Numbered from the stretch's first letter, positions 1 through 12,882 are shown. The stretch: DNA of 64,000 nucleotides from an uncultured Flavobacteriales bacterium (GCA_943788755.1 CALSRM010000003.1:558001-622000); one strand, 5' to 3'. Translations and numbers: made by a program. Notes: generated by a model not told the origin, from the letters alone.

Positions 1-297
1 GTTTTTGCTCACAACCATGCTCCAGGTATGACACTTATAACAAATACTAAAGGAGAACATTACCACAAGCATCCCTATACTAATGACACAGGTGCAAACG
101 TTGGAGATATAGGTTCAGTTGGTTGTTGTGGTTGTGAAGGGATTGGCCCCGAAGGAAGTTTTAATAGAACATCTACAAATGATGGTGAACATGGCCATAG
201 TGTTTATGGTAGTACATCAAACGTCAATTCTGGATCACAAACGGCTATGGACAAAATTCCTCCATATTTCGTAGTGTATTATTTAGTAAAATTATAA
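1..297 (+). CDS. C-terminal part of a secreted tail-collar-like protein (5' end outside window)
   Basis: The reading frame is open from base 1, so only the last 98 residues are present and the first visible Met (base 28) is internal. The fragment is rich in paired histidines (HNH at bases 10-18, HYHKH at 58-72, HGH at 190-198) and ends in PPYFVVYYLVKL. The two complete proteins downstream share the same layout and the same kind of ending. By analogy with them this is the tail-collar-like C-terminal domain of an exported protein; its N-terminus cannot be seen. A gap of 13 bases separates it from the next gene, so the two are probably co-transcribed. A surface-exposed, possibly metal-binding tip is an inference from the HxH motifs. 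Confidence 0.75.
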   Translation, partial: VFAHNHAPGMTLITNTKGEHYHKHPYTNDTGANVGDIGSVGCCGCEGIGPEGSFNRTSTNDGEHGHSVYGSTSNVNSGSQTAMDKIPPYFVVYYLVKL

Positions 298-310
298 AAG
301 CAATATTTAT

Positions 311-1585
311 ATGCAATTGAAGATAATCAAAATCATAGCAATCGTTTTCTTGATAATCATTGGACCCTCCGTTGTTTCTCAAGTTAAAATTGGTGATCCG
401 AATAGTCCAGATGCAAATTCTATATTGGACCTTACCAATAGCAGTAATCTGGGGTTATTATTAAATAACAGGCTCACTTCAGTGGACACCAGTGATATTC
501 AACCTGTGGGAACGCTACAGTTTTATGATGGAGAACTGTATCTTTCTCAAAGCAGTAGTATTGCAAAGTGGAACGTACTTTCTCCATGGCGTTTTAATGG
601 TAGCTATGATTATGGAGTTTGTATTCCTTCTCTTGGAACTTATGGAGTAGGAATTGGAGTCAACACACATGCTGCTAGCTATCAAGACTCTACTTATTTG
701 CATTTGGCACAACCAAATACAAGCAAAAACATTATTGATGCACCTCTATTAATTGGACCTGAAATTGGAACACAAACACCACCACCAACCGATAAATATA
801 TGCTAGTCAATAACAAAGGAATTTTATGTTATGACACTGACATTAGTAATGTTGATACATTGTTTCTGCAACAAATTGAATATGGAAAAGTACAAGTAGG
901 AGAATCATCCTCAAATAATACGGATTTAAATGTATACGGGAAAGTTACTGAAGGAGGAGGAAATATACAACCTAAAAACGCTATTATAATGTGGAATGGA
1001 AACATCACGGGTTCCAATTTTAATAGCGGACTTGGAATAAATGAAATGACAGGTTGGGCTATATGTGATGGTAATAATGGTACACCGGATTTAACGGGTA
1101 GATTTATTGTAGGTTCAGGAGAACGGAATAAATACATTAGAACAGCTTCAGGCTCAATAGATTCATTAAGCGCTAATGAGACTTTTCCGGTACCCGCTCA
1201 AACCAGCATTGGAGGGCAAGATGATTTTTTACAAACGGCATCACAAGTTGGGATTCATTTACATACAAAAGGAACCTTATCAGCTATCAGTCGTGGTGCA
1301 CATGAACATGGAAGCAAAGCATCTAGTGTTTATGGAGGCGGCAGTATTGGAGCCTGTTGGCCAGAGGATGATGGTGTAAACCTCGGACCTCGAGATGTGA
1401 CCACATCAACGCCATACCTTCAAAATGTAGTGGCAAACCTTCTTGATGACACCAACACACCTAATCATTCTCATGATATTACAGGAACCACACTAGCCAA
1501 TGCATCGAGCACTCCAACTGCTCCTCAAGAGGTCATTGTGAATCATCCTTATTATTACGTAGTCATTTATTTAATGAAACTTTGA
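311..1585 (+). CDS. Secreted protein with phage tail-collar-like C-terminal domain and HxH motifs
   Basis: A protein of 424 residues starting with a signal peptide (about residues 1-24, ending VVSQ). The next 60 residues (VKIGDPNSPDANSILDL... GLLLNNR) resemble the head region seen in many exported Bacteroidota tail-fibre-like proteins. The C-terminal half holds the collar-like signature MTGWAICDG ... PDLTGRFIVG (about residues 240-270), then three HxH pairs at H316/H318, H331/H333 and H386/H388, and ends HPYYYVVIYLMKL. In phage T4 tail-fibre tips (gp12, gp37) such pairs bind metal ions along a trimer axis. That the same holds here is inference. No classical T9SS C-terminal domain is visible, so the export route after the Sec step is unknown. 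It is the middle of three tandem paralogues. Confidence 0.8.
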   Translation: MQLKIIKIIAIVFLIIIGPSVVSQVKIGDPNSPDANSILDLTNSSNLGLLLNNRLTSVDTSDIQPVGTLQFYDGELYLSQSSSIAKWNVLSPWRFNGSYDYGVCIPSLGTYGVGIGVNTHAASYQDSTYLHLAQPNTSKNIIDAPLLIGPEIGTQTPPPTDKYMLVNNKGILCYDTDISNVDTLFLQQIEYGKVQVGESSSNNTDLNVYGKVTEGGGNIQPKNAIIMWNGNITGSNFNSGLGINEMTGWAICDGNNGTPDLTGRFIVGSGERNKYIRTASGSIDSLSANETFPVPAQTSIGGQDDFLQTASQVGIHLHTKGTLSAISRGAHEHGSKASSVYGGGSIGACWPEDDGVNLGPRDVTTSTPYLQNVVANLLDDTNTPNHSHDITGTTLANASSTPTAPQEVIVNHPYYYVVIYLMKL

Positions 1586-1596
1586 TACTTGAAATT

Positions 1597-2808
1597 ATGA
1601 ATAAAGTTTTAATCATCATCCTTTTTCAATTTTTCCTGCTTGGATCACCCTTTGCACAAGTTAGTATTGGAAAATCAACCATCACAAATGATAGTTCAGT
1701 ATTGGACCTCTCCAATTTTTTTAACAAAGGTCTTTTACTCAATAATTATGCAGGTGTTTTAGACACAACAATTGCTAAGCCCATAGGAATGCTATATTTT
1801 GACAGCCTTTATTTGTTCATTTCTCAAGACAGCCTTGTGGCAAGATGGAATGCACTTTCCCCATGGATTTTTGATGGAGATACAGATAATGGAATTGAAT
1901 ATGGATCAGTTGGGCGGCTAGGAATAGGAATAGGAATTAATGTCCACGATCCATCCTATGACCCAACACCAGCATCGAGGTATTATTATCCAACTAACTT
2001 GCATATTGGACAGGGAAACAATGAAGTCATTAATGGAAGTTCTACTAGCTCTTCTGTATTAATTGGAAATGAATCAGTTACCCCTAATTATGAGTACCTA
2101 TTAATGGATAATGATGAAATAATGAACAAACAGAATAATGGATCTGCAACTACATTGTATATCCAGGATACAGTTGATGTCTCTGTTCAAATTGGAAGAA
2201 TTCCTTCTGACTCTGCAGTTTTAAATGTCCATGGTAAGGTAAAAGAAAACGGAGGGCACATTCAGCCACAAAATACTATAATTATGTGGACAGGAGATAC
2301 ATTAAATAACTTCACAAATGGACTTGGAACAGGTAGAATGACTGGATGGGCGATTTGCAATGGGAAGACTTATAATTACAATGGTTTAAATATCATTTCC
2401 CCAAACTTGCAAGGCCGATTTATTGTTGGATATGGAACTCGTGGTAGTTACACTTTTATACAAAAAGATTATGAAGGTAATGATGAAATTATGCAAACGC
2501 AAAACCAAGTAGGCAAACATACACATGGAGATGGTAGCTTAATTACTAGCTCTTCGGGTTCGCATACACATGATGTATATAGAAGTGTGGAAACCAATAA
2601 TCATACTAGTAGTAGTTTAGGAGGCGATTTAGGCGATGGTAGTGATGATGGGACAAAACTGGAAGGTTCAATAGCTACAGATTTGGATGGTAATCACTTT
2701 CATCATCTATCAGGCGCTACTGCGAACAATGCTTATGCAGGTGCACAACAAGCAATGCCGAACACTCCTCCCTATTATGTAGTAGTTTATTTACTTAAAC
2801 TTTATTAA
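1597..2808 (+). CDS. Secreted protein with phage tail-collar-like C-terminal domain, paralogue of preceding gene
   Basis: A protein of 403 residues from the ATG at 1597. A TTG at 1582 lies in frame but overlaps the previous stop and would put five extra residues before a normal signal peptide (MNKVLIIILFQFFLLGSPFAQ region). The layout matches the preceding gene: VSIGKSTITNDSSVLDLSN head, the pair MTGWAICNG ... PNLQGRFIVG, three HxH pairs (H308/H310, H323/H325, H367/H369) and the ending PPYYVVVYLLKLY. The first two HxH pairs are 15 residues apart in both proteins, so that spacing is conserved while the sequence between has diverged. It sits 11 bases upstream of a giant adhesin gene, probably in one transcript. 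Confidence 0.8.
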   Translation: MNKVLIIILFQFFLLGSPFAQVSIGKSTITNDSSVLDLSNFFNKGLLLNNYAGVLDTTIAKPIGMLYFDSLYLFISQDSLVARWNALSPWIFDGDTDNGIEYGSVGRLGIGIGINVHDPSYDPTPASRYYYPTNLHIGQGNNEVINGSSTSSSVLIGNESVTPNYEYLLMDNDEIMNKQNNGSATTLYIQDTVDVSVQIGRIPSDSAVLNVHGKVKENGGHIQPQNTIIMWTGDTLNNFTNGLGTGRMTGWAICNGKTYNYNGLNIISPNLQGRFIVGYGTRGSYTFIQKDYEGNDEIMQTQNQVGKHTHGDGSLITSSSGSHTHDVYRSVETNNHTSSSLGGDLGDGSDDGTKLEGSIATDLDGNHFHHLSGATANNAYAGAQQAMPNTPPYYVVVYLLKLY

Positions 2809-2818
2809 TACATCAATT

Positions 2819-5800
2819 ATGTTGAATTCTATCAAAACATATTTATTTCTTCTGTTCTTAAGTCTCATTATTCCCTTTGAGGTTTCCGCTCAAATTAGGA
2901 CTATTCACACTGGTTCATTTTTTACGATTGGGGAGAATGCGAAAATGACAATAATTGGAGACTTAAAAGATAGCTCTCAAACGGCAGACAGAGAGATTAG
3001 CAATTTTGGATCTATTTTCTTGAATGGATCCATTCAAAACTTTGGGGTCAATAACGTTTTTGGGACAGCTATTTATGGCTATTTTCAATTCTTTGGACCA
3101 GCAAGTCAGTCAGTGTCTGGAATATTTCCGACACAATTTTGTAACTTAGAAGTGGATCTTGATGGACAGCTTTTGAATATTAATAAGAAAACAATTGTGA
3201 ATGATTCTTTATTATTGAGGTCTGGCGATATTTTTCTTTTTAGCGACACATTGGTTCTTGCCCAGCTTTCGAATTCTTCTGTAAGTGGTTATCCTTCTGG
3301 AATTATTGGAGAAACCAATGACAAAAGAATATTTGGACCAAGTTTCCCAGTTATGGTGCAAGGAGCAACTTTTAATATGGGTGGGTCTACGGTCAATCCT
3401 TATGAGAAATTGAAAGGAATTGGACTTTCATTCCAAAATGGATATATATCTTCTACCCCAGGTAATATTTACCGCTGGAACATTGGTCAGTCGGCTGGGC
3501 CAACACTTGGTTCAGTTGAACGAACTTATAAATTTGATGATATTGCTAGCCCATCAAGCCCTACTATTACTCAAATTTCAAGCAAGTTTCATGACCCTCT
3601 TGAATTGCCTGGTACAATGGATGGAACGGATATGCATATCTATTATTCGGAAGATGGTACAAATTCCTGGAGAGACATAGAAGGAACTTCAGGAACAGGT
3701 GAAGTTACTAGCCCAACGCATCCAAAAACTTTAAATAATCAATCGGTAATTACTGTTTCAAAAAATGACTGTGATATTTTACCTACTGTGGATATCAAAC
3801 AAGTAATCACTGCAACTAGTGATACTCTTTTATTGGCGGATGGGGCTATAATCAGTAATTGTGATGCAAATGCAGCAGATGTTCGTTTACTTGCCTTTGG
3901 AGATGCTGGAACTTACGAATGGTTTTATGAGAATGAAACTACCTCAGAACAAATAGCTTATTCTTCAAATAGCTTATTTATTCCTACCCATACCACAGGT
4001 AGGTATAAACTATTGTTAACAAATACCAGAGGATGTTCAGACACTGCAATAGTGGTTCTAGAACAAGCTTATTTAGGGAATGCTAATTTTACAGTATCTG
4101 ATGTAAATGCATGTGACCAAGACAATATAACTTTTACACCAGTAGATCCGGATTCTACCACATTGGCCCCTGGTTACTCTTATGAATGGGATTTGGGCGA
4201 GGGTAGCCCTGTATTAAATTATAATGCCAATATTACGTATACCACATATGGATCGTATGAAGTTTCTTTAACGGTTACAACAAACAATGGGTGTGTTTCG
4301 CAAGAATCACAAACAGTGAATGTATTTGCAATACCCACACCGGCTTTTTCAGCAACTTCAGCTTGTCCAGGTGCCGTAGTGCAATTTACTAACGAAACCG
4401 TTTCGGATCCATTGGCGATCCCTGCACAAAACCTTTTTCTTAACTGGAATTTTGGAGATGGAAATTCTGATGTTTCAACAGGATTAAGTAATGGTGCAAA
4501 TGGAGACATTACACATATTTATGCTATGGGAGGGGATACAACGGTTACCCTTACTGCTTCTGATATAAACGGTTGTCAAGGAACAATTACAGGAACGATT
4601 ACTGTTCACCCTTTACCTGAGGTAAATTTTGATTATAACGCTGCATGCGAAGGACAAGTAACACAATTTAATGACAGTTCTGAAATTGAAGGTGGAACCC
4701 CACTAACCTACCATTGGGATTTTACTGGGGTTGGGCCAACTTCTACAGACAAAGACCCAACTTATATTTTTTCCAATAGCACAGGATACTGGACCACATT
4801 GACAGTTACAAGTGTTGAAGGTTGTGTAAATGATACTACAAAACAAGTATTAGTAGATGAAATACCAACCGCTATTATCAGCCCTATACTTAGCGATGTA
4901 TGTGAAAACCAAATTATTGGCCTTTCCGGAGCTGCATCATTGACATCATCCTCATTTATTAATTTTGAATGGGATTTTGACGACGGTTCGGCCACAGTTG
5001 ACACTATAGAATCAGATGTTAACCACAGTTACCCTTCCTTTGGAACATATGACGTGCAGTTGACAGTTACTACACAGCAAAATTGCACTTCAACTACCAA
5101 CTATTTGTTGCTAGTTTATCAAGGCCCAACAGTTGGCTTTACTGCAACAGGTGTAGGCTCAGGAACGAACTGCGAAAAATCTACATTTAACCTTACCAAC
5201 TCAACTACCAATGCGGTAACCTATCAATGGGGTATACCTGGAACTTCTTTTAGTGAAACTACATCTAGTACAAGCACTATTTTTAATACGCCTGGTTATC
5301 ATCAAATTGAATTGACAGCAACCTCAATAAATGGTTGTGAAAGCTATAAGTTGGATTCAGTATATGTTAATCCATTACCACAAGGAAATTTTGGTGATAC
5401 AACAAGAAGCTGTATCACTTCAATTACTTTAGATGCTGATGACTCTGGTCTAAATGCAGGATATCTCTTTTTATGGAACAATGGACTGTCAGGTTATGAC
5501 GAGTCAATAGTAAATGTAAACTCCGGAAATACCATTGGTGATTATACAGTTACCATTACCTCGGATCAAGGTTGCGCAATAACCGATCAGACATATGTTT
5601 TGTTAAACGCTGCTATCGAGCCAGATTTAGGAATCGACGGTGATGTCTGTGACAGCATCTTTTTAGATGCTGGGTATTATGGCACAGGAACAGATTATAA
5701 ATGGACTGACCTAAATACGGGAGACACTCTTTCAGTCACGGATCAGTCTTTTTGGGCTACAACAGATGGATATTATAAAGTCGATATTACCACAAACACC

Positions 5801-7276
5801 AATCTTCCTCAGGCTAGCCAATGTACAGGTGAGGATTCGATAATTGTGATTGTAAATACAGTTACTCCGGTAGAGTTAAATGGTCCATATATAGCATGCG
5901 TGGGAGATGTTGTAACATTGGATGCAGGTAGTAATTGGGAATTTACCACTTGGGACGATGGTTCTACTAATTCCACATTGAATGTAACGGAATCTGGATT
6001 TTACACAGTAACGGCAGATAGTAGTGTCTGTTCGTCGACAGATTTTGTAGAAGTTACTTTCAACCCATCACCCGTATTCTCTCTACCTCAAACATTAACT
6101 TCATGTGAATTTGCTAATCTCGATGTTTTCACTAATAATTGTACTTATGAATGGTACGATGGGACCACCACATCAGCACACCAGACGACACATACGGGAG
6201 TTGACACGCTATGGGTAGAGGTGACGTTAACTACTACTACCTGTGTTTTACGGGATTCAGTGGAGGTTACTATTAATCCAAACCCTACAATAAATTTAGG
6301 TGCAGATACTACTATATGTAGTTATGATACACTTCAATTGGATGCTGGTAATGGCCTTGGGCACTCTTTTTTATGGAACAATAATACTACCAATCAAACT
6401 TTAACTGTTTCCGCTTCTAGTGAATATTCGGTTACGGTTACAAACAACACTACAACATGTTTTAATGATGCTAGTATCATTGTAAATTCACTACCGTTGT
6501 TCAATTTTGACTTAGGTGATGACTTATTGTTTTGTGGAGATTCTACTTCAGAATTGAATGTAGAACCTGGTTTAGGGTTAAATAATGCAACATATAATTG
6601 GTATAATTTGACAGGAGCTCTATCAACTACAGAAGACTATGCCGTAAAAGATACTGGAATGCTTTATTTAGAAGTAACAGATGAATTTGGTTGTATAGCT
6701 TCAGATTCTGTGGACATACTTCCTTCTAATTTGTCGCTAACAGCCGTGTTTCTAGCAATGACTGAAGTCGTGAAAAAAGATACAGTGTATTTTATAAACC
6801 TTTCATACCCTAGGCCATATCAATCATTTTGGGAGATTGAAGATTATGGTTATACTAGTTTAGACTCATCTATTTCTTATGCGTTTCCAGAGGCAGGCTT
6901 CTTTGATGTGAGATTAACTGTGAACAATGGCACCTGTATTTCATCTATCGAAAAAACTATTACTGTTAGAAACACTAAATCAAAAATTGAAAAGCCTGAT
7001 TCGCCACCATCCCTGTATATAAACTTGAAAGAAGTAATGGTTTATCCGAACCCAAACAATGGAAGCTTCAGTCTGCGTGTTGAATTAGGGGAAGAAGCTA
7101 ATGTACAAGTTGCAATTTACAACTTATTAGGTCAACTGATATTGACAGATTCCTTTGATACTAAAAAGACAGATCGTCAATATTCCCTTAACAATATTGA
7201 AAAAGGCATGTATTTAATTAATGTACGTGCAGGAAAAAATCAACAAACTGTAAAATTTATTAAAATAGATAACTGA
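2819..7276 (+). CDS. Giant PKD-repeat surface adhesin with T9SS type A sorting domain
   Basis: A protein of 1485 residues. It has a signal peptide (about 1-25, ending EVSAQ) and an N-terminal beta-rich region with no recognised domain. Then come repeated PKD-like Ig-fold modules recognisable by YEWDLGEGSP, LNWNFGDGNSD, YHWDFTGVGP and FEWDFDDGSA followed by GxYxVxLTV strands, and then further Ig-like repeats with paired cysteines. The last 80 residues (VMVYPNPNNGSF ... VKFIKIDN) are a typical T9SS type A C-terminal domain, so the protein should cross the outer membrane through T9SS and be attached to or released from the surface. PKD arrays of this size usually serve as extended stalks in adhesins. 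The gene overlaps the next one by one base (TGATG), indicating translational coupling. Confidence 0.9.
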   Translation: MLNSIKTYLFLLFLSLIIPFEVSAQIRTIHTGSFFTIGENAKMTIIGDLKDSSQTADREISNFGSIFLNGSIQNFGVNNVFGTAIYGYFQFFGPASQSVSGIFPTQFCNLEVDLDGQLLNINKKTIVNDSLLLRSGDIFLFSDTLVLAQLSNSSVSGYPSGIIGETNDKRIFGPSFPVMVQGATFNMGGSTVNPYEKLKGIGLSFQNGYISSTPGNIYRWNIGQSAGPTLGSVERTYKFDDIASPSSPTITQISSKFHDPLELPGTMDGTDMHIYYSEDGTNSWRDIEGTSGTGEVTSPTHPKTLNNQSVITVSKNDCDILPTVDIKQVITATSDTLLLADGAIISNCDANAADVRLLAFGDAGTYEWFYENETTSEQIAYSSNSLFIPTHTTGRYKLLLTNTRGCSDTAIVVLEQAYLGNANFTVSDVNACDQDNITFTPVDPDSTTLAPGYSYEWDLGEGSPVLNYNANITYTTYGSYEVSLTVTTNNGCVSQESQTVNVFAIPTPAFSATSACPGAVVQFTNETVSDPLAIPAQNLFLNWNFGDGNSDVSTGLSNGANGDITHIYAMGGDTTVTLTASDINGCQGTITGTITVHPLPEVNFDYNAACEGQVTQFNDSSEIEGGTPLTYHWDFTGVGPTSTDKDPTYIFSNSTGYWTTLTVTSVEGCVNDTTKQVLVDEIPTAIISPILSDVCENQIIGLSGAASLTSSSFINFEWDFDDGSATVDTIESDVNHSYPSFGTYDVQLTVTTQQNCTSTTNYLLLVYQGPTVGFTATGVGSGTNCEKSTFNLTNSTTNAVTYQWGIPGTSFSETTSSTSTIFNTPGYHQIELTATSINGCESYKLDSVYVNPLPQGNFGDTTRSCITSITLDADDSGLNAGYLFLWNNGLSGYDESIVNVNSGNTIGDYTVTITSDQGCAITDQTYVLLNAAIEPDLGIDGDVCDSIFLDAGYYGTGTDYKWTDLNTGDTLSVTDQSFWATTDGYYKVDITTNTNLPQASQCTGEDSIIVIVNTVTPVELNGPYIACVGDVVTLDAGSNWEFTTWDDGSTNSTLNVTESGFYTVTADSSVCSSTDFVEVTFNPSPVFSLPQTLTSCEFANLDVFTNNCTYEWYDGTTTSAHQTTHTGVDTLWVEVTLTTTTCVLRDSVEVTINPNPTINLGADTTICSYDTLQLDAGNGLGHSFLWNNNTTNQTLTVSASSEYSVTVTNNTTTCFNDASIIVNSLPLFNFDLGDDLLFCGDSTSELNVEPGLGLNNATYNWYNLTGALSTTEDYAVKDTGMLYLEVTDEFGCIASDSVDILPSNLSLTAVFLAMTEVVKKDTVYFINLSYPRPYQSFWEIEDYGYTSLDSSISYAFPEAGFFDVRLTVNNGTCISSIEKTITVRNTKSKIEKPDSPPSLYINLKEVMVYPNPNNGSFSLRVELGEEANVQVAIYNLLGQLILTDSFDTKKTDRQYSLNNIEKGMYLINVRAGKNQQTVKFIKIDN

Positions 7277-10200
7277 TGATCAAGATGATACGCACAGCCG
7301 CAACCCTTATTCTTGTAATTTGCTATGGTTCAGTAACCCATGGCCAAGCTCCCTGTTTGGATGGCTGGAAATACCGGTTGGAAATAGAGGTTGAAAATTT
7401 AAACGCCTCTCCATTATTGTTACATCAAGTTGAACTACTTTTTGATACTGAGCAGCTTGTTAATGATGGAAAAGCAAGGGTTGATGGTGGTGACTTTAGG
7501 TTTCAAAATGCTAATGGAGACTTATTGAACTATTGGTTTGATCCAACCACTTATAATAACCCTTCGATGTTGACCAGTTTTTGGATAAAAATTGACGCGA
7601 TACCAACCGGAACTTCAAATATATATGTTTATTATGGAAACGCAACATGTTCGGTAGTTTCAAGTGGTGAAGGAACGTTTGAATTCTTTGATTCGTTTGA
7701 TGGAGGAACGATTGCCCCTTCTAAATGGGGAATATGCGGAGATGGAGCAAATGTTCAAGTTGCAGCAAATAGAGATGTTGATTTAACTTATAATGCAACA
7801 GATAATGATACTTATATGATAACTGATGCTGGGTTTAATAATGTACAGGTTGAAATGAAAGTAAATAGCGTCTCATCTGGAGTGGCTTTTATAGGTTTAT
7901 TGGACTCAACTGATGGTCATGGTTTTGCTACCGCTTATGAACACATTGGAGGAGCAGATAAAGCTAAATTGATGTGGTTTGATCCTTTACTTCCGGCTTT
8001 TTGTGATTCATTGAAAGATTTTCCTACGGTATCATCATATAACGTTTCTTCAATAAACGGTATATGGGGGCTAAATTGGCCCGCAGATAATACTCACAAT
8101 ATATTTTACCCCAATGGAACCCAACTTGATATACATACTGATTTAGGGGTTTTTGGAAATAAAAAACGCATTATTTTAGGTGTTACATCAAGTACTACTC
8201 ATGCAACTGGGGCATTAAATTTCGATTGGGTTAGGGCAAGGAAATATGCAGCGTTTCAACCCACATCCAAAATTAGTACAACTGATTTTACAGAATATGA
8301 AGCGCCTCTGAATCCCAATCAAAGCAACACCGGACCATACTGTGAAGGAGACAATATTGAACTAACCTCAGACAATTTTGAAGGTGCCCAATACAACTGG
8401 TTTGACAATAATTCCGTTTTGATAGCGACCACCAATAATTATACTTCAGGAAGCGCTAGCACCCTGCTCAATGCAGGTGTATATACACTTGAAGTAGGTA
8501 TGCCTGGGGATCCAGTTAGCTGTGCTGTTAATTCAATAACTACGGAAGTTTCTATTGCACCAGGAACGTTTACTGGAAGTATTGTTGGACCGGGGACAAA
8601 CATTTGTTCGGGAACCAATAGTGGAACACTGGAGCTGGGTAACTTGGTAAATGACATTGTTGTAGGAGATATTTTACGTTGGGAAATGGCTAACAGTTCA
8701 GTTGGACCATGGGCAACCCTAACAAACACTACGAGATTTTTGGACTATCAAAACGTTGTGGGTACTACTTTTTATCGTGCTGTAGTTAAGAGCGGAGGAT
8801 GTCCAGAAATAATCAGTCAAGAACTTGAATTAGGAGTAGATCAGGCTACTGAAGGTGGCTTTCTGTTGGGTACAGCATCAGTTTGTTCAGGTAACAATAG
8901 TGGTGATTTGAACTTAGTTTACCACAATGGATATATTAATGGCTGGGAATCCTATGATGTGCCTTCAGGTATTTGGCAGCCGTTAAACCCCAACAACGAT
9001 CCATTGTTGTTATATAGTGGCCTGGTTACCACTACCAAATACAGAGCTGAAATACAAAACGGCGTTTGTCCTACGGAATATTCTTCAGAAGTAACCATTA
9101 CGGTGAATGAAAATCCAGTAGCTGGATTTTTCTCTGATACAGTTTGCCAAGGATTTACAACAACTGTAACAGATACGACTAGAATAGCTGCCGGTAGTGG
9201 CACTATTATAAGTTGGGCATGGGATCTTGGTAATGGTAATGGTAGTATTGCTCAGAACCCTCAAACTGTTTTTCCAGCTGCTTTGCCTAGTGTAAATCAA
9301 GTATCTTTAACCGTTGAAACGGATAGAGGTTGCACCCATACAGCATCTCAAAATGTAATTGTTAATGCTCTTCCTATCGTAAATTACACATCTACAGACG
9401 TTTGTTTAGGTGATCTAATGAATTTTACAACTCTTTCTCCAACAGCCGGTCCAAATATTGAGTACGATTGGTTTTTTGTTGGAGATACTACCTGTATTCA
9501 ACGAGACACGAGCATTATTTTTAAAGACCCAGGACCCTATGATGTTACATTGGTTGTTACATCGCCGGAATCTTGTATAGACTCCATGACAAATACCATT
9601 TTAGTAAATACACCAGTAGATGTTGATTTTATTTGTGATAGTGTATGTTTAGGTGAACCGATTAATTTTATCAATACTTCTATCTCTCCTGGATCGACTG
9701 TACAATACACTTGGTTTTTTGGCGATGGCCAAATATCGGCCACTCTTAATCCAGTTCATACCTATGCTGATACTGGAAACGTCGATGTTATCCTGAGAGC
9801 AGATATCGGATCAGGTCCTTCGGCTTGCTCAAGAGAAATAACCAAAACAGTACGAATTTATGAAGTTCCTGAAGCTGTGTTTTCAGTGGCTGATATTTGC
9901 CAAATTGACTCAGCTGAATTTTTAAATTCATCTTCCTATAATAGTGGTAATGGAGCAAATGACCTTACATATGTATGGGATTTTGGAGATGCGTCAAGTA
10001 GCACGCTTAGTGAAGATAAACATAAGTATAGTCTACCCAACAATTACACTGTTGGATTAAGAGCTGCATCACCAGAGGGTTGTGTTCATTCTAGCAGCAG
10101 TATTCTCGTTGTAAACGCTATGCCTGTTTCAGGGTTTTCATATACTGATGTGTGTTTAAACGAGCCTATGATTTTCACATCAACATCTTCTCCAAGTAAC

Positions 10201-11373
10201 TTAACGTATGATTGGAGTCTTGATGATGGCACTTCAAACTTAACCCAAGAAAACCCAAATCACACTTATACCCAGGATGGCAGCTACGATGTTCAGTTAG
10301 TTGTAGAAACGAATGTTGGAAACTGTAGGGATACAACAACAAAAACTGTTTTCGTTTACCCTGTGCCAGAACCAATGTTTACTGTTACTGATACATGTGA
10401 TGGAATTGCTTCTGTTTTTACGGATCAATCTGATATTAACACGCCAGGAAACAATACTAGCTGGGTTTGGGATTTTGGAGACGGATCTAGTTCTTCAAGT
10501 CAAAATCCTTCTCATCTTTTCCTTAATGTGGGAACTTACAATGTTAAATTAACAGTTACATCTGATAATGGGTGTTGGAGAGAAATAATTCTTCCTGCTA
10601 CTCTTGATCCCTTGCCAGTACCTAACTTTACCGTAGAAGATGCTTGTGAGGAAAGTGAAGTCTTGTTTTTTAACACAACACCTCCACTTACAGGAACTAT
10701 TACTTATGATTGGGACTTTAGCGATGGGGATTATTCAACGTTCCCGAACCCGACGCATGAATATGCAGCTCCAGGCTTTTACCAGGTGCAATTAGTTGCC
10801 ATTACGGGAGAAGGTTGTAAAGACTCTATTACTAAATATGCTGAAGTATTTGTAAATCCTGTTGTGGATGCTGGTAATGATACTAGTGTTAGCCAAGGTT
10901 TTGAGGTAGAATTGTCAGCTTTTTACCCAGGAGCCACAGTCTATAACTGGTCTCCTGAAGAAGGGCTTGATAATAACTCTATTTTCAACCCTAATGCGTC
11001 ACCATTAGACACAACGACCTACTCTGTGTCTGTAACAGATTACAACGGTTGTATTGGAGAGGGAGAGGTTACTGTTAATGTAATAATGGATTATAAATTG
11101 TTTATTCACAATGTAATTACCCCTGATGGAAATGGACAGAATGATACATGGAAAATTACCAATATCGAGACTTTTGAGACCGCAGATGTATATGTATATG
11201 ATCGTTGGGGAATGGAGGTTTTAAAAGTTCAAGGTTACCAAAACGAATGGAATGGGATTAAGGGCACGGATCAATTACCGGATGGCACCTATTACTATAT
11301 AATCAAAATAAAGTTTGGCAAAGGTGAAGAAAAAATTTACAAAGGATCCTTAACGGTATTAAGAAATAAATAG
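7276..11373 (+). CDS. Giant DUF2341/PKD adhesin with gliding-associated (type B) C-terminal domain
   Basis: A protein of 1365 residues. A signal peptide (about 1-24) is followed by a DUF2341-type module (WKYRLEIEVEN ... IYVYYGNATC, about 27-118) and a concanavalin-like region (SFDGG... to FDWVRARKY, about 137-325), a pairing typical of surface carbohydrate- or matrix-binding proteins. Ig-like repeats and about seven PKD modules follow (for example WVWDFGDGSSS, YTWFFGDGQIS, YDWDFSDGDYS). The end (VITPDGNGQNDTWKI ... YDRWGMEV ... LPDGTYYYIIKI) is the gliding motility-associated type B sorting domain. Type B cargo such as SprB depends on a SprF/PorP-family partner, and one is encoded four bases downstream. 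That this pair forms a cargo-partner couple is inference from gene order. Confidence 0.9.
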   Translation: MIKMIRTAATLILVICYGSVTHGQAPCLDGWKYRLEIEVENLNASPLLLHQVELLFDTEQLVNDGKARVDGGDFRFQNANGDLLNYWFDPTTYNNPSMLTSFWIKIDAIPTGTSNIYVYYGNATCSVVSSGEGTFEFFDSFDGGTIAPSKWGICGDGANVQVAANRDVDLTYNATDNDTYMITDAGFNNVQVEMKVNSVSSGVAFIGLLDSTDGHGFATAYEHIGGADKAKLMWFDPLLPAFCDSLKDFPTVSSYNVSSINGIWGLNWPADNTHNIFYPNGTQLDIHTDLGVFGNKKRIILGVTSSTTHATGALNFDWVRARKYAAFQPTSKISTTDFTEYEAPLNPNQSNTGPYCEGDNIELTSDNFEGAQYNWFDNNSVLIATTNNYTSGSASTLLNAGVYTLEVGMPGDPVSCAVNSITTEVSIAPGTFTGSIVGPGTNICSGTNSGTLELGNLVNDIVVGDILRWEMANSSVGPWATLTNTTRFLDYQNVVGTTFYRAVVKSGGCPEIISQELELGVDQATEGGFLLGTASVCSGNNSGDLNLVYHNGYINGWESYDVPSGIWQPLNPNNDPLLLYSGLVTTTKYRAEIQNGVCPTEYSSEVTITVNENPVAGFFSDTVCQGFTTTVTDTTRIAAGSGTIISWAWDLGNGNGSIAQNPQTVFPAALPSVNQVSLTVETDRGCTHTASQNVIVNALPIVNYTSTDVCLGDLMNFTTLSPTAGPNIEYDWFFVGDTTCIQRDTSIIFKDPGPYDVTLVVTSPESCIDSMTNTILVNTPVDVDFICDSVCLGEPINFINTSISPGSTVQYTWFFGDGQISATLNPVHTYADTGNVDVILRADIGSGPSACSREITKTVRIYEVPEAVFSVADICQIDSAEFLNSSSYNSGNGANDLTYVWDFGDASSSTLSEDKHKYSLPNNYTVGLRAASPEGCVHSSSSILVVNAMPVSGFSYTDVCLNEPMIFTSTSSPSNLTYDWSLDDGTSNLTQENPNHTYTQDGSYDVQLVVETNVGNCRDTTTKTVFVYPVPEPMFTVTDTCDGIASVFTDQSDINTPGNNTSWVWDFGDGSSSSSQNPSHLFLNVGTYNVKLTVTSDNGCWREIILPATLDPLPVPNFTVEDACEESEVLFFNTTPPLTGTITYDWDFSDGDYSTFPNPTHEYAAPGFYQVQLVAITGEGCKDSITKYAEVFVNPVVDAGNDTSVSQGFEVELSAFYPGATVYNWSPEEGLDNNSIFNPNASPLDTTTYSVSVTDYNGCIGEGEVTVNVIMDYKLFIHNVITPDGNGQNDTWKITNIETFETADVYVYDRWGMEVLKVQGYQNEWNGIKGTDQLPDGTYYYIIKIKFGKGEEKIYKGSLTVLRNK

Positions 11374-11376
11374 ACT

Positions 11377-12882
11377 ATGAAAATTATTCAAATAACTATT
11401 GTGTCAATGTTGCTTAGTAATACAGTTGTTGGTCAACAGACATCTGTAATAGATCATTATTTAGTAAACCCTTACTTTATTAACCCGTCGGCTGCAGGGT
11501 TAAAAGGTAATCAAGCATACTTAGATTATCACAAACAGTGGCAGGGGTTCCAAGGGTCTCCTGAAACACAAATAGTAACTATTGACGGAAACATAAATCG
11601 GCAAAAACATGGTTTAGGTTTGTCAATTATTAATGATCAAACCAACATTCTTGGATCTACGAGTGGGTTTTTGACATATGCTTATAATATTCAGCTTTCG
11701 AAAATACAGTTTCTTCGATTTGGGGCTTCTGTAGGTGCAGTGCAAAATAGAATCATATATAACAATATTATTGCGGAAGACCCAACTGAGTTACAATTGT
11801 TCGAAAATAATCAAAACGCTACTAATTTTGACATCGATGCAGGACTGTATTATCAACTTGAAAAATTTTCGGTTGGTTTTGCGGCAAAACACTTATTAAC
11901 TCCTAGTTTTAGATATGAAAACAACTTTACCGCTAACAACTTAACATTCTCAAGAGTTCCCCACTATATTATTAATGCACAATATGACATTGAAATTAAA
12001 GGAGGCAAATGGGAGTTTCAGCCAAGTGTTTTTATGAAGGGAGTTCAAGGTGTTCCGTTTGTATTTGAAGGTGGGATTACGGGGACTTATAAAAAGATTT
12101 TTTGGTCTACTCTTCGATATAGTCATAACATTGGGTATACTGCTTCTATTGGAGGAGTAATTTCAAAACAATTAGTCTTAGGGTATTCATATAATATGTC
12201 TAGCTCGGAACTTGCAGCGCATAACTCGGGTAGTCATGAAATATTGATTGGATACAGGTTTGGTTCCAATAATGGAGGATCAGGCTCTAATCAAGAGTTT
12301 AAAAAACTGGAAGAGCAAAATATTGAGCTTTTTGAAAATACAGATCAACTTCAGATTGAAAACGAAAAAATCCGCGAAGAATTAGAAGATCAAAGAAAAA
12401 AGTTAAAGGAGGCTATTTATGGACTTGACGAATTAAAAAAGGTGCTTGAAAAAGAAAGAGCTGATAGGGAAAAAATGATTTCGGAGTTTGAATTTAAACC
12501 GAGTAATAACCCTAGTTTGGAAAACGAGGAGCCTAATGAACCAGAAATTATAGAGCCAGAGCAAAGTTATTCTAGCGCAGAAGACCAAAATCCTAAAGAG
12601 CCAGAAGTTAACGAAGACTCTTCGGATAAAATAGTTGAAGGAGACTTATACGTTGTTGTTGGAGCCACAAGGGAAATGAAAGAAGCGCAAAACTTTCAAA
12701 AGATACTAACTAGGGAGTATAAGCTAAAAACAAGAATCGTTCGTAATTCCAGAGCCTCATGGTTTCTGATTTATACGCTTGAAACCAACGACCAAAAAGA
12801 AGCAAACAAAGAGCTGAAAAGAGTTAAGAAAGTCAATACAAAAGACCTTTACTTTGGAAAGCCTTGGATATATTTTGAATAG
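11377..12882 (+). CDS. PorP/SprF-family outer-membrane protein with coiled-coil and SPOR-like extension
   Basis: A protein of 501 residues. After a signal peptide (about 1-19) comes the hallmark PorP/SprF start (DHYLVNPYFINPSAAG ... YHKQWQGFQGSP) and a beta-barrel region to about residue 290. Most family members stop near 300-330 residues. Here a charged coiled coil (about 305-370, LEEQNIELFENTDQL onward) follows, then an acidic Glu/Pro-rich linker (about 375-415) and a C-terminal SPOR-like domain (GDLYVVVGATREMKEAQNF ... PWIYFE, about 420-501). SPOR folds bind peptidoglycan, so the tail may tie the barrel to the cell wall; that is inference. The gene follows the type B adhesin, which is the usual place for a cargo-specific SprF partner. 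No stem-loop is visible before dinB. Confidence 0.9.
   Translation: MKIIQITIVSMLLSNTVVGQQTSVIDHYLVNPYFINPSAAGLKGNQAYLDYHKQWQGFQGSPETQIVTIDGNINRQKHGLGLSIINDQTNILGSTSGFLTYAYNIQLSKIQFLRFGASVGAVQNRIIYNNIIAEDPTELQLFENNQNATNFDIDAGLYYQLEKFSVGFAAKHLLTPSFRYENNFTANNLTFSRVPHYIINAQYDIEIKGGKWEFQPSVFMKGVQGVPFVFEGGITGTYKKIFWSTLRYSHNIGYTASIGGVISKQLVLGYSYNMSSSELAAHNSGSHEILIGYRFGSNNGGSGSNQEFKKLEEQNIELFENTDQLQIENEKIREELEDQRKKLKEAIYGLDELKKVLEKERADREKMISEFEFKPSNNPSLENEEPNEPEIIEPEQSYSSAEDQNPKEPEVNEDSSDKIVEGDLYVVVGATREMKEAQNFQKILTREYKLKTRIVRNSRASWFLIYTLETNDQKEANKELKRVKKVNTKDLYFGKPWIYFE

Follow-up and report, generated by a model that had tools for sequence, protein, structure and literature searches.

Collar proteins with phage-type HxH tips in a conserved, T9SS-linked, probably TANFOR-type locus of uncultured Flavobacteriales

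Introduction

The C-terminal tips of the phage T4 proteins gp12 and gp37 (Pfam Collar PF07484; PDB 1ocy, 1pdi and 2xgf) are among the closest described counterparts of the proteins considered here. Six-histidine sites made of HxH motifs hold iron in gp37 and in pyocin fibres, and zinc in crystals of gp12 (PMC6116203). Tandem triplets of collar genes are also found in Bacteroidota, where short Collar triplets without a signal peptide (e.g. the Mdp-like L104:306-2013) are common in the genomes and form a separate branch. At the level of the locus, TANFOR (TIGR02542; Jana et al. 2020, PMC7073777) is the name of a protein class published for Bacteroidota, comprising large surface or toxin proteins; they have been described as polymorphic toxins with an enrichment of Fn3, PKD and T9SS sorting domains among their neighbours. 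In the sprCDBF operon (PMC9143113, PMC12635249), a type B CTD protein adjoins a PorP/SprF carrier; such a protein and a SprF/PorP-like carrier are the usual cargo/carrier pair (PMC9143113), and the SprF of gliding carries a CxC tail motif that ties it to GldK (PMC12635249). A literature search on collar proteins, either in Bacteroidota or within TANFOR loci, yielded nothing relevant.

Here, we analysed a stretch of 64,000 nucleotides from an uncultured Flavobacteriales bacterium (GCA_943788755.1 CALSRM010000003.1:558001-622000), called the window throughout, at the start of which a sequence-only reading had proposed three tandem, exported tail-collar-like proteins with three HxH-type pairs each.

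Results

The operon occupies the first part of the window, where its features, counted from the first letter, are as follows.

1..297, + strand: collar protein 1, C-terminal 98 codons; PHROG tail protein/tail fibre, E 0.007-0.03 (fragment)
10..18, + strand: HxH pair 1 (HNH) of collar protein 1; aligns with the invariant pair of profile A2
58..72, + strand: HxH pair 2 (HYHKH) of collar protein 1
190..198, + strand: HxH pair 3 (HGH) of collar protein 1
311..1585, + strand: collar protein 2, 424 aa, predicted signal peptide; PHROG tail fibre 5.7e-9, PDB 9qgo 2.3e-5
1052..1114, + strand: collar segment GWAICDG...GRFIVG of protein 2
1256..1264, + strand: HxH pair 1 (HLH) of collar protein 2; column invariant in 24 relatives
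1301..1309, + strand: HxH pair 2 (HEH) of collar protein 2
1466..1474, + strand: HxH pair 3 (HSH) of collar protein 2
1597..2808, + strand: collar protein 3, ~404 aa, predicted signal peptide; PHROG tail protein 4.7e-9, Pfam Collar 13.4 bits (below the 24-bit cut-off)
2344..2430, + strand: collar segment GWAICNG...GRFIVG of protein 3
2518..2526, + strand: HxH pair 1 (HTH) of collar protein 3; invariant column
2563..2571, + strand: HxH pair 2 (HTH) of collar protein 3
2695..2703, + strand: HxH pair 3 (HFH) of collar protein 3
2819..7276, + strand: PKD-repeat protein, 1485 aa, T9SS type A sorting domain; PKD_4 2e-40, Por_Secre_tail 9.7e-14
7276..11373, + strand: PKD-repeat protein, 1365 aa, DUF2341, T9SS type B (CHU_C) domain; PKD_4 3e-78, CHU_C 1e-23
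11377..12882, + strand: PorP/SprF outer-membrane carrier; TIGR03519 225 bits, SPOR E 0.009 (below cut-off)

The first collar gene has its start 894 bases before the window begins (whole gene G000:C3:557107-558297, 396 aa), and the third is counted here from the ATG at 1597, the start in the ORF list being the TTG at 1582. The three proteins are paralogues sharing 37-42% identity. The collar-like segment, GW.(I/L)C(D/N)G...GRFIVG, which the sequence-only reading could see in two of them, is present in the truncated protein 1 as well, its copy lying outside the window, and the three HxH-type pairs proposed for each protein were seen in all three. These pairs are confined to the C-terminal part, the N-terminal part having none. 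What did not stand is the equal 15-residue distance between pairs 1 and 2 as the mark of a ladder: it is found in both complete proteins, but protein 1 has a distance of 16 and relatives have anything from 6 to 21, so this spacing is not a conserved feature, and we dropped it.

Each collar protein begins with a hydrophobic leader that ends before a Gln (at the slash in SIG/QVRIG, VVS/QVKIG and SPFA/QVSIG for proteins 1, 2 and 3), and a signal peptide with Gln at +1 was recognized in 23/23 full-length aligned relatives. Gln at this position follows the Q-rule published for the signal peptidase I substrates of Bacteroidetes (PMC5837995). The collar proteins are thus predicted from the sequence pattern to be Sec-exported, in agreement with the proposal that they are cellular exported proteins; no T9SS sorting domain was found in any of them. 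Their N-terminal ~85 residues form a shared module, which is found again in many further exported proteins of the order whose C-termini differ.

The sequence-only reading had itself named a lack of HxH conservation in homologues as the observation that would speak against it. Among the 24 aligned operon relatives, in which the mean column identity is just 29%, pair 1 is invariant (24/24) and pair 2 is kept in at least 90%; at least three pairs occur in 21 of the 24, and one relative (L062) has a single pair. Shuffling the last 130 residues gave an equal number of pairs with P = 1e-4, 0.0017 and 0.0045 for the three proteins, and conservation of the pairs is the stronger test of the two.

A profile built from the 24 operon-associated collar proteins (A2) and searched against the PDB matched 9qgo (7.1e-24), 9nxk (2e-18) and 6ov6 (5e-16), together with the T4 tips gp12 (1.7e-11) and gp37 (3.5e-6). 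In this comparison, the invariant pair 1 falls on the HKH of the YHKH motif of gp12, which we take to be its zinc-binding residues His445/His447. The PHROG tail collar fibre family was matched by 20/24 operon members and Pfam Collar, at E <=0.01, by 15/24 (30.7 bits for L050). With single sequences the searches were weak: the window's own collar proteins reached 13-15 bits against Pfam Collar or did not match it (cut-off 24), ~5e-9 against the PHROG tail fibre and 2.3e-5 against 9qgo. Phage records searched directly with a window collar protein gave no match, and with a more canonical relative they gave weak matches of ~28-36% identity. AF2 monomer models were poor, with a mean pLDDT of 52.6 for full-length protein 3, a model that was set aside, and 70.7 for the tip alone, as would be expected of an interlaced trimer folded as a monomer. 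Nevertheless, when the tip monomer was submitted to Foldseek, the first six rows were chains of 6ov6, 9nxk, gp37 (2xgf) and gp12, with a TM of ~0.25, and the best VIA-align hit of the tip model was gp12, at a Z of 4.7, which is below any firm level. Profile matches, Foldseek top rows and the HxH alignment together support the homology of the collar/HxH tip to gp12/gp37-type phage tips.

The resemblance extends to the C-terminal placement of the tip and to a C-terminal end of the form PPYY.L.YIMK, in addition to the collar segment and the aligned first HxH. The window proteins differ from gp12 and gp37, however, in being cellular and predicted to be exported by a signal peptide, in having a short N-terminal module where the phage proteins have a virion-attachment shaft, and in occurring more than once, in tandem, within an adhesin operon. 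They share with the Mdp-like triplets the arrangement of three tandem collar genes in Bacteroidota, but the latter encode proteins of 172-195 aa that lack a signal peptide, contain at most one HxH and lie in another neighbourhood.

From the collar genes to the SprF gene, the gaps between the operon genes of the window are at most 13 bases. The assignment of the two PKD proteins as T9SS adhesins, which had been proposed earlier, is upheld by their type A and type B sorting domains (TIGR04183, 54.2 bits with a cut-off of 23, and TIGR04131, 58.6 bits with a cut-off of 35, respectively). The carrier encoded at 11377-12882, which is one of ~20 PorP/SprF matches in the genome, ends in a coiled-coil-like stretch and a SPOR-like domain, as do its relatives, and no CxC motif was found in the SprF tails compared. 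Because this tail replaces the CxC tail of gliding SprF, it suggests that the carrier is a fixed cell-wall anchor and not a moving adhesin.

The operon starts upstream of the window with three further genes on the same strand. They encode a 565-aa protein without a family match, presumed to be an outer-membrane barrel, a giant of 3059 aa (L005:1930-11109 = G000:C3:545930-555109), and a 661-aa Fn3 protein, whose gene ends 7 bases short of the first collar gene. The giant contains pentapeptide-like repeats at residues ~1890-2090, preceded by many short beta-type repeats. When the N-terminal regions of such giants were compared with TANFOR (TIGR02542), 7/12 matched at E <=0.01 (best 6e-10); the L045 giant scored 25.8 bits (cut-off 67), and the giant of the window genome had no direct TANFOR match and is linked to the other giants by 25-60% identity in the alignment. 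The C-terminus of the giants is conserved and non-polymorphic within the clade, and no toxin or immunity family was found in them with Pfam and NCBIfam.

Given the presumed barrel, the TANFOR-like giant and the Fn3 protein, the operon points to a TANFOR-type surface locus; because of the conserved C-terminus and the lack of a detected toxin, we claim nothing beyond that. It shares with published TANFOR loci (PMC7073777) a TANFOR-like giant and the Fn3, PKD and T9SS-substrate neighbours, and differs from them in showing no C-terminal toxin and in including phage-tip genes and a SPOR-tailed SprF, both absent from the list of enriched neighbours in that paper. The suggestion of a new kind of surface appendage is weakened accordingly, the operon pointing to a published class more than to something entirely new.

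The operons of relatives were collected with the Fn3 protein as bait, a scan of genome contigs with the window collar protein having given no match. The nearest relatives are MAGs labelled uncultured Flavobacteriales, and the operon is kept in at least 15 loci. In several families the order is barrel, TANFOR-like giant, Fn3, one to three collar genes, PKD type A, PKD type B and SprF; in family f8 it is barrel, Fn3, collar, PKD type A, SprF, PKD type B and giant. The collar-PKD-SprF order whose search across Bacteroidota had been suggested is therefore conserved in loci from several families. The collar genes occupy a constant slot between the Fn3 and PKD type A genes; in 15 loci, the collar gene, or another fibre gene in its place, follows the Fn3 gene at a distance of -4 to 26 bases.

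Across 199 genomes of the order, collar matches (<=1e-45) were found in 10/13 genomes with the Fn3 gene vs 1/186 without it (Fisher 1.5e-13, a P value that serves only as a guide, given the relatedness of the genomes and a threshold fixed once the list was known). In the single genome with such a collar match and no Fn3 gene (G001), the contig concerned is 6.9 kb long and terminates in the collar gene. As for the Fn3-bearing genomes without a strong collar match, a contig end lies inside a collar-type gene in G020, another fibre fills the slot in G019, and G041 has none. Distant Fn3/giant loci, in records of Cytophagales, Niastella, Hydrotalea and Ignavibacteriales, have no collar gene, which places the tips in a single branch of a more widespread system.

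The other fibre (L042:4527-6437, the same case as L059 and G019) is 636 aa long and combines an N-terminal module of the same kind with a PilV/shufflon-like body (PF04917, 2.1e-10), but has no HxH; its C-terminus resembles an S74 fibre chaperone at 17.1 bits (below the cut-off of 22). Judged by these matches, the slot has seen one exchange of tip type, between collar/HxH and a putative PilV/S74-like fibre. In a further MAG (L060:1744-3927), Fn3 and collar tip are joined in a single 727-aa ORF from which the last Fn3 repeats and the collar N-terminus are missing. This ORF may represent a fusion, a deletion or an assembly artefact and, being found in a single MAG contig with a possible local deletion, is weak evidence for contact between Fn3 and collar.

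Discussion

In the locus described here, an old phage fold appears in a new cellular context: phage-type tips are apparently a regular and exchangeable part of a T9SS/TANFOR-type locus, which would mean that phage tip modules have come to serve the cell in a Sec/T9SS-linked role. To the more specific reading that the three genes encode interchangeable, presumably homotrimeric tips with which a T9SS-dependent surface apparatus of TANFOR type recognizes its targets, we give an even chance. After cleavage by signal peptidase before the Gln, the collar protein would have the shared N-terminal module as its attachment end and the C-terminal collar and HxH part as its tip. Three chains would knit into a trimer, in the periplasm or at the surface, and their invariant HxH motifs would form a six-histidine site with iron or zinc on the axis, while pairs 2 and 3 probably hold further ions. 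Besides the tips, which would have to pass the outer membrane, the assembled apparatus would contain the presumed barrel, the TANFOR-like giant and the Fn3 protein. The T9SS would export both PKD proteins, and the one of type B would be held by its own SprF, a carrier that the SPOR-like tail may tie to peptidoglycan. Targets of the tips would be a cell, a polymer or a host surface, and the presence of one to three diverged copies could widen or vary the range of targets. Against this reading stand the poor monomer models, the sub-threshold Pfam Collar scores of the window's own proteins, the lack of a T9SS sorting domain in the collar proteins, the single HxH pair of L062, and a TANFOR match that is below the curated cut-off for L045 and absent on direct search for the giant of this genome.

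An alternative explanation, possible but on the unlikely side, is that the collar proteins are stand-alone, homotrimeric, metal-pinned surface adhesins for particles or algae that are merely co-transcribed with the PKD adhesins and share no apparatus with them. The adjoining PKD and T9SS adhesins fit this, and so does an N-terminal module common to many exported proteins elsewhere in the genomes; however, full-length relatives are almost restricted to genomes with the Fn3/TANFOR-like genes and their slot is always the same, a different type of tip leaves the slot in place (L059), and one MAG has the tip and the Fn3 protein as a fusion (L060). Recognition tips might also choose a target cell for contact-dependent toxin delivery by a TANFOR polymorphic-toxin machine, in the manner of phage or pyocin fibres, as the TANFOR-like giant and the Fn3, PKD and T9SS sorting-domain neighbours known from published TANFOR loci (PMC7073777) would suggest. 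The conserved, non-polymorphic C-termini of the giants and the absence of detected toxin or immunity domains in the clade make this quite improbable; with no toxin domain in the giant, a weapon role is not supported.

That the genes are prophage or tailocin remnants captured beside an adhesin operon seems very improbable to us, despite the homology of the tips to phage fibres and the existence of a close solved relative, 6ov6 from the flavobacterium Bizionia argentinensis, which we take to belong to a prophage. All full-length members have a signal peptide with Gln at +1, the window protein has no close phage match, and, as the sequence-only reading had stated for this operon, no phage structural gene was found in it, either in this genome or in the relatives, where the gene order is kept over several families. 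A recent insertion is strongly disfavoured by the conserved operon and the signal peptides; an ancient phage origin of the tip domain is likely. Just as improbable is a gliding operon like sprCDBF of Flavobacterium johnsoniae with the collar proteins at the SprC position. The order is similar (small protein, large protein, type B adhesin, SprF), a type B CTD protein adjoins the PorP/SprF carrier in both, and the genome encodes GldJ as well as the T9SS translocon SprA (2515 bits), but the SprF tails lack the twin cysteines by which gliding SprF is tied to GldK and have the coiled-coil and SPOR-like tail in their place.

Returning to interchangeable recognition tips, the fixed slot, the change in copy number and the one exchange of tip type provide a testable hypothesis for target recognition by TANFOR machines. 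A bolder extension, which we put forward tentatively and consider rather unlikely, is a non-contractile, T9SS-assembled Bacteroidota machine with exchangeable, phage-type, metal-threaded tips (collar/HxH or S74/PilV-like) that would choose the cells it touches, the TANFOR-like giant serving as its body or as an effector carrier.

Two of the collected records have features of their own. In L045:1-2921, the f8 operon is followed by a protein with a HELGH zinc-protease-like motif and by another exported protein. L064 (CP034120.1), labelled Glaciecola amylolytica, a gammaproteobacterial name that looks wrong, carries the operon and groups with the order of the window.
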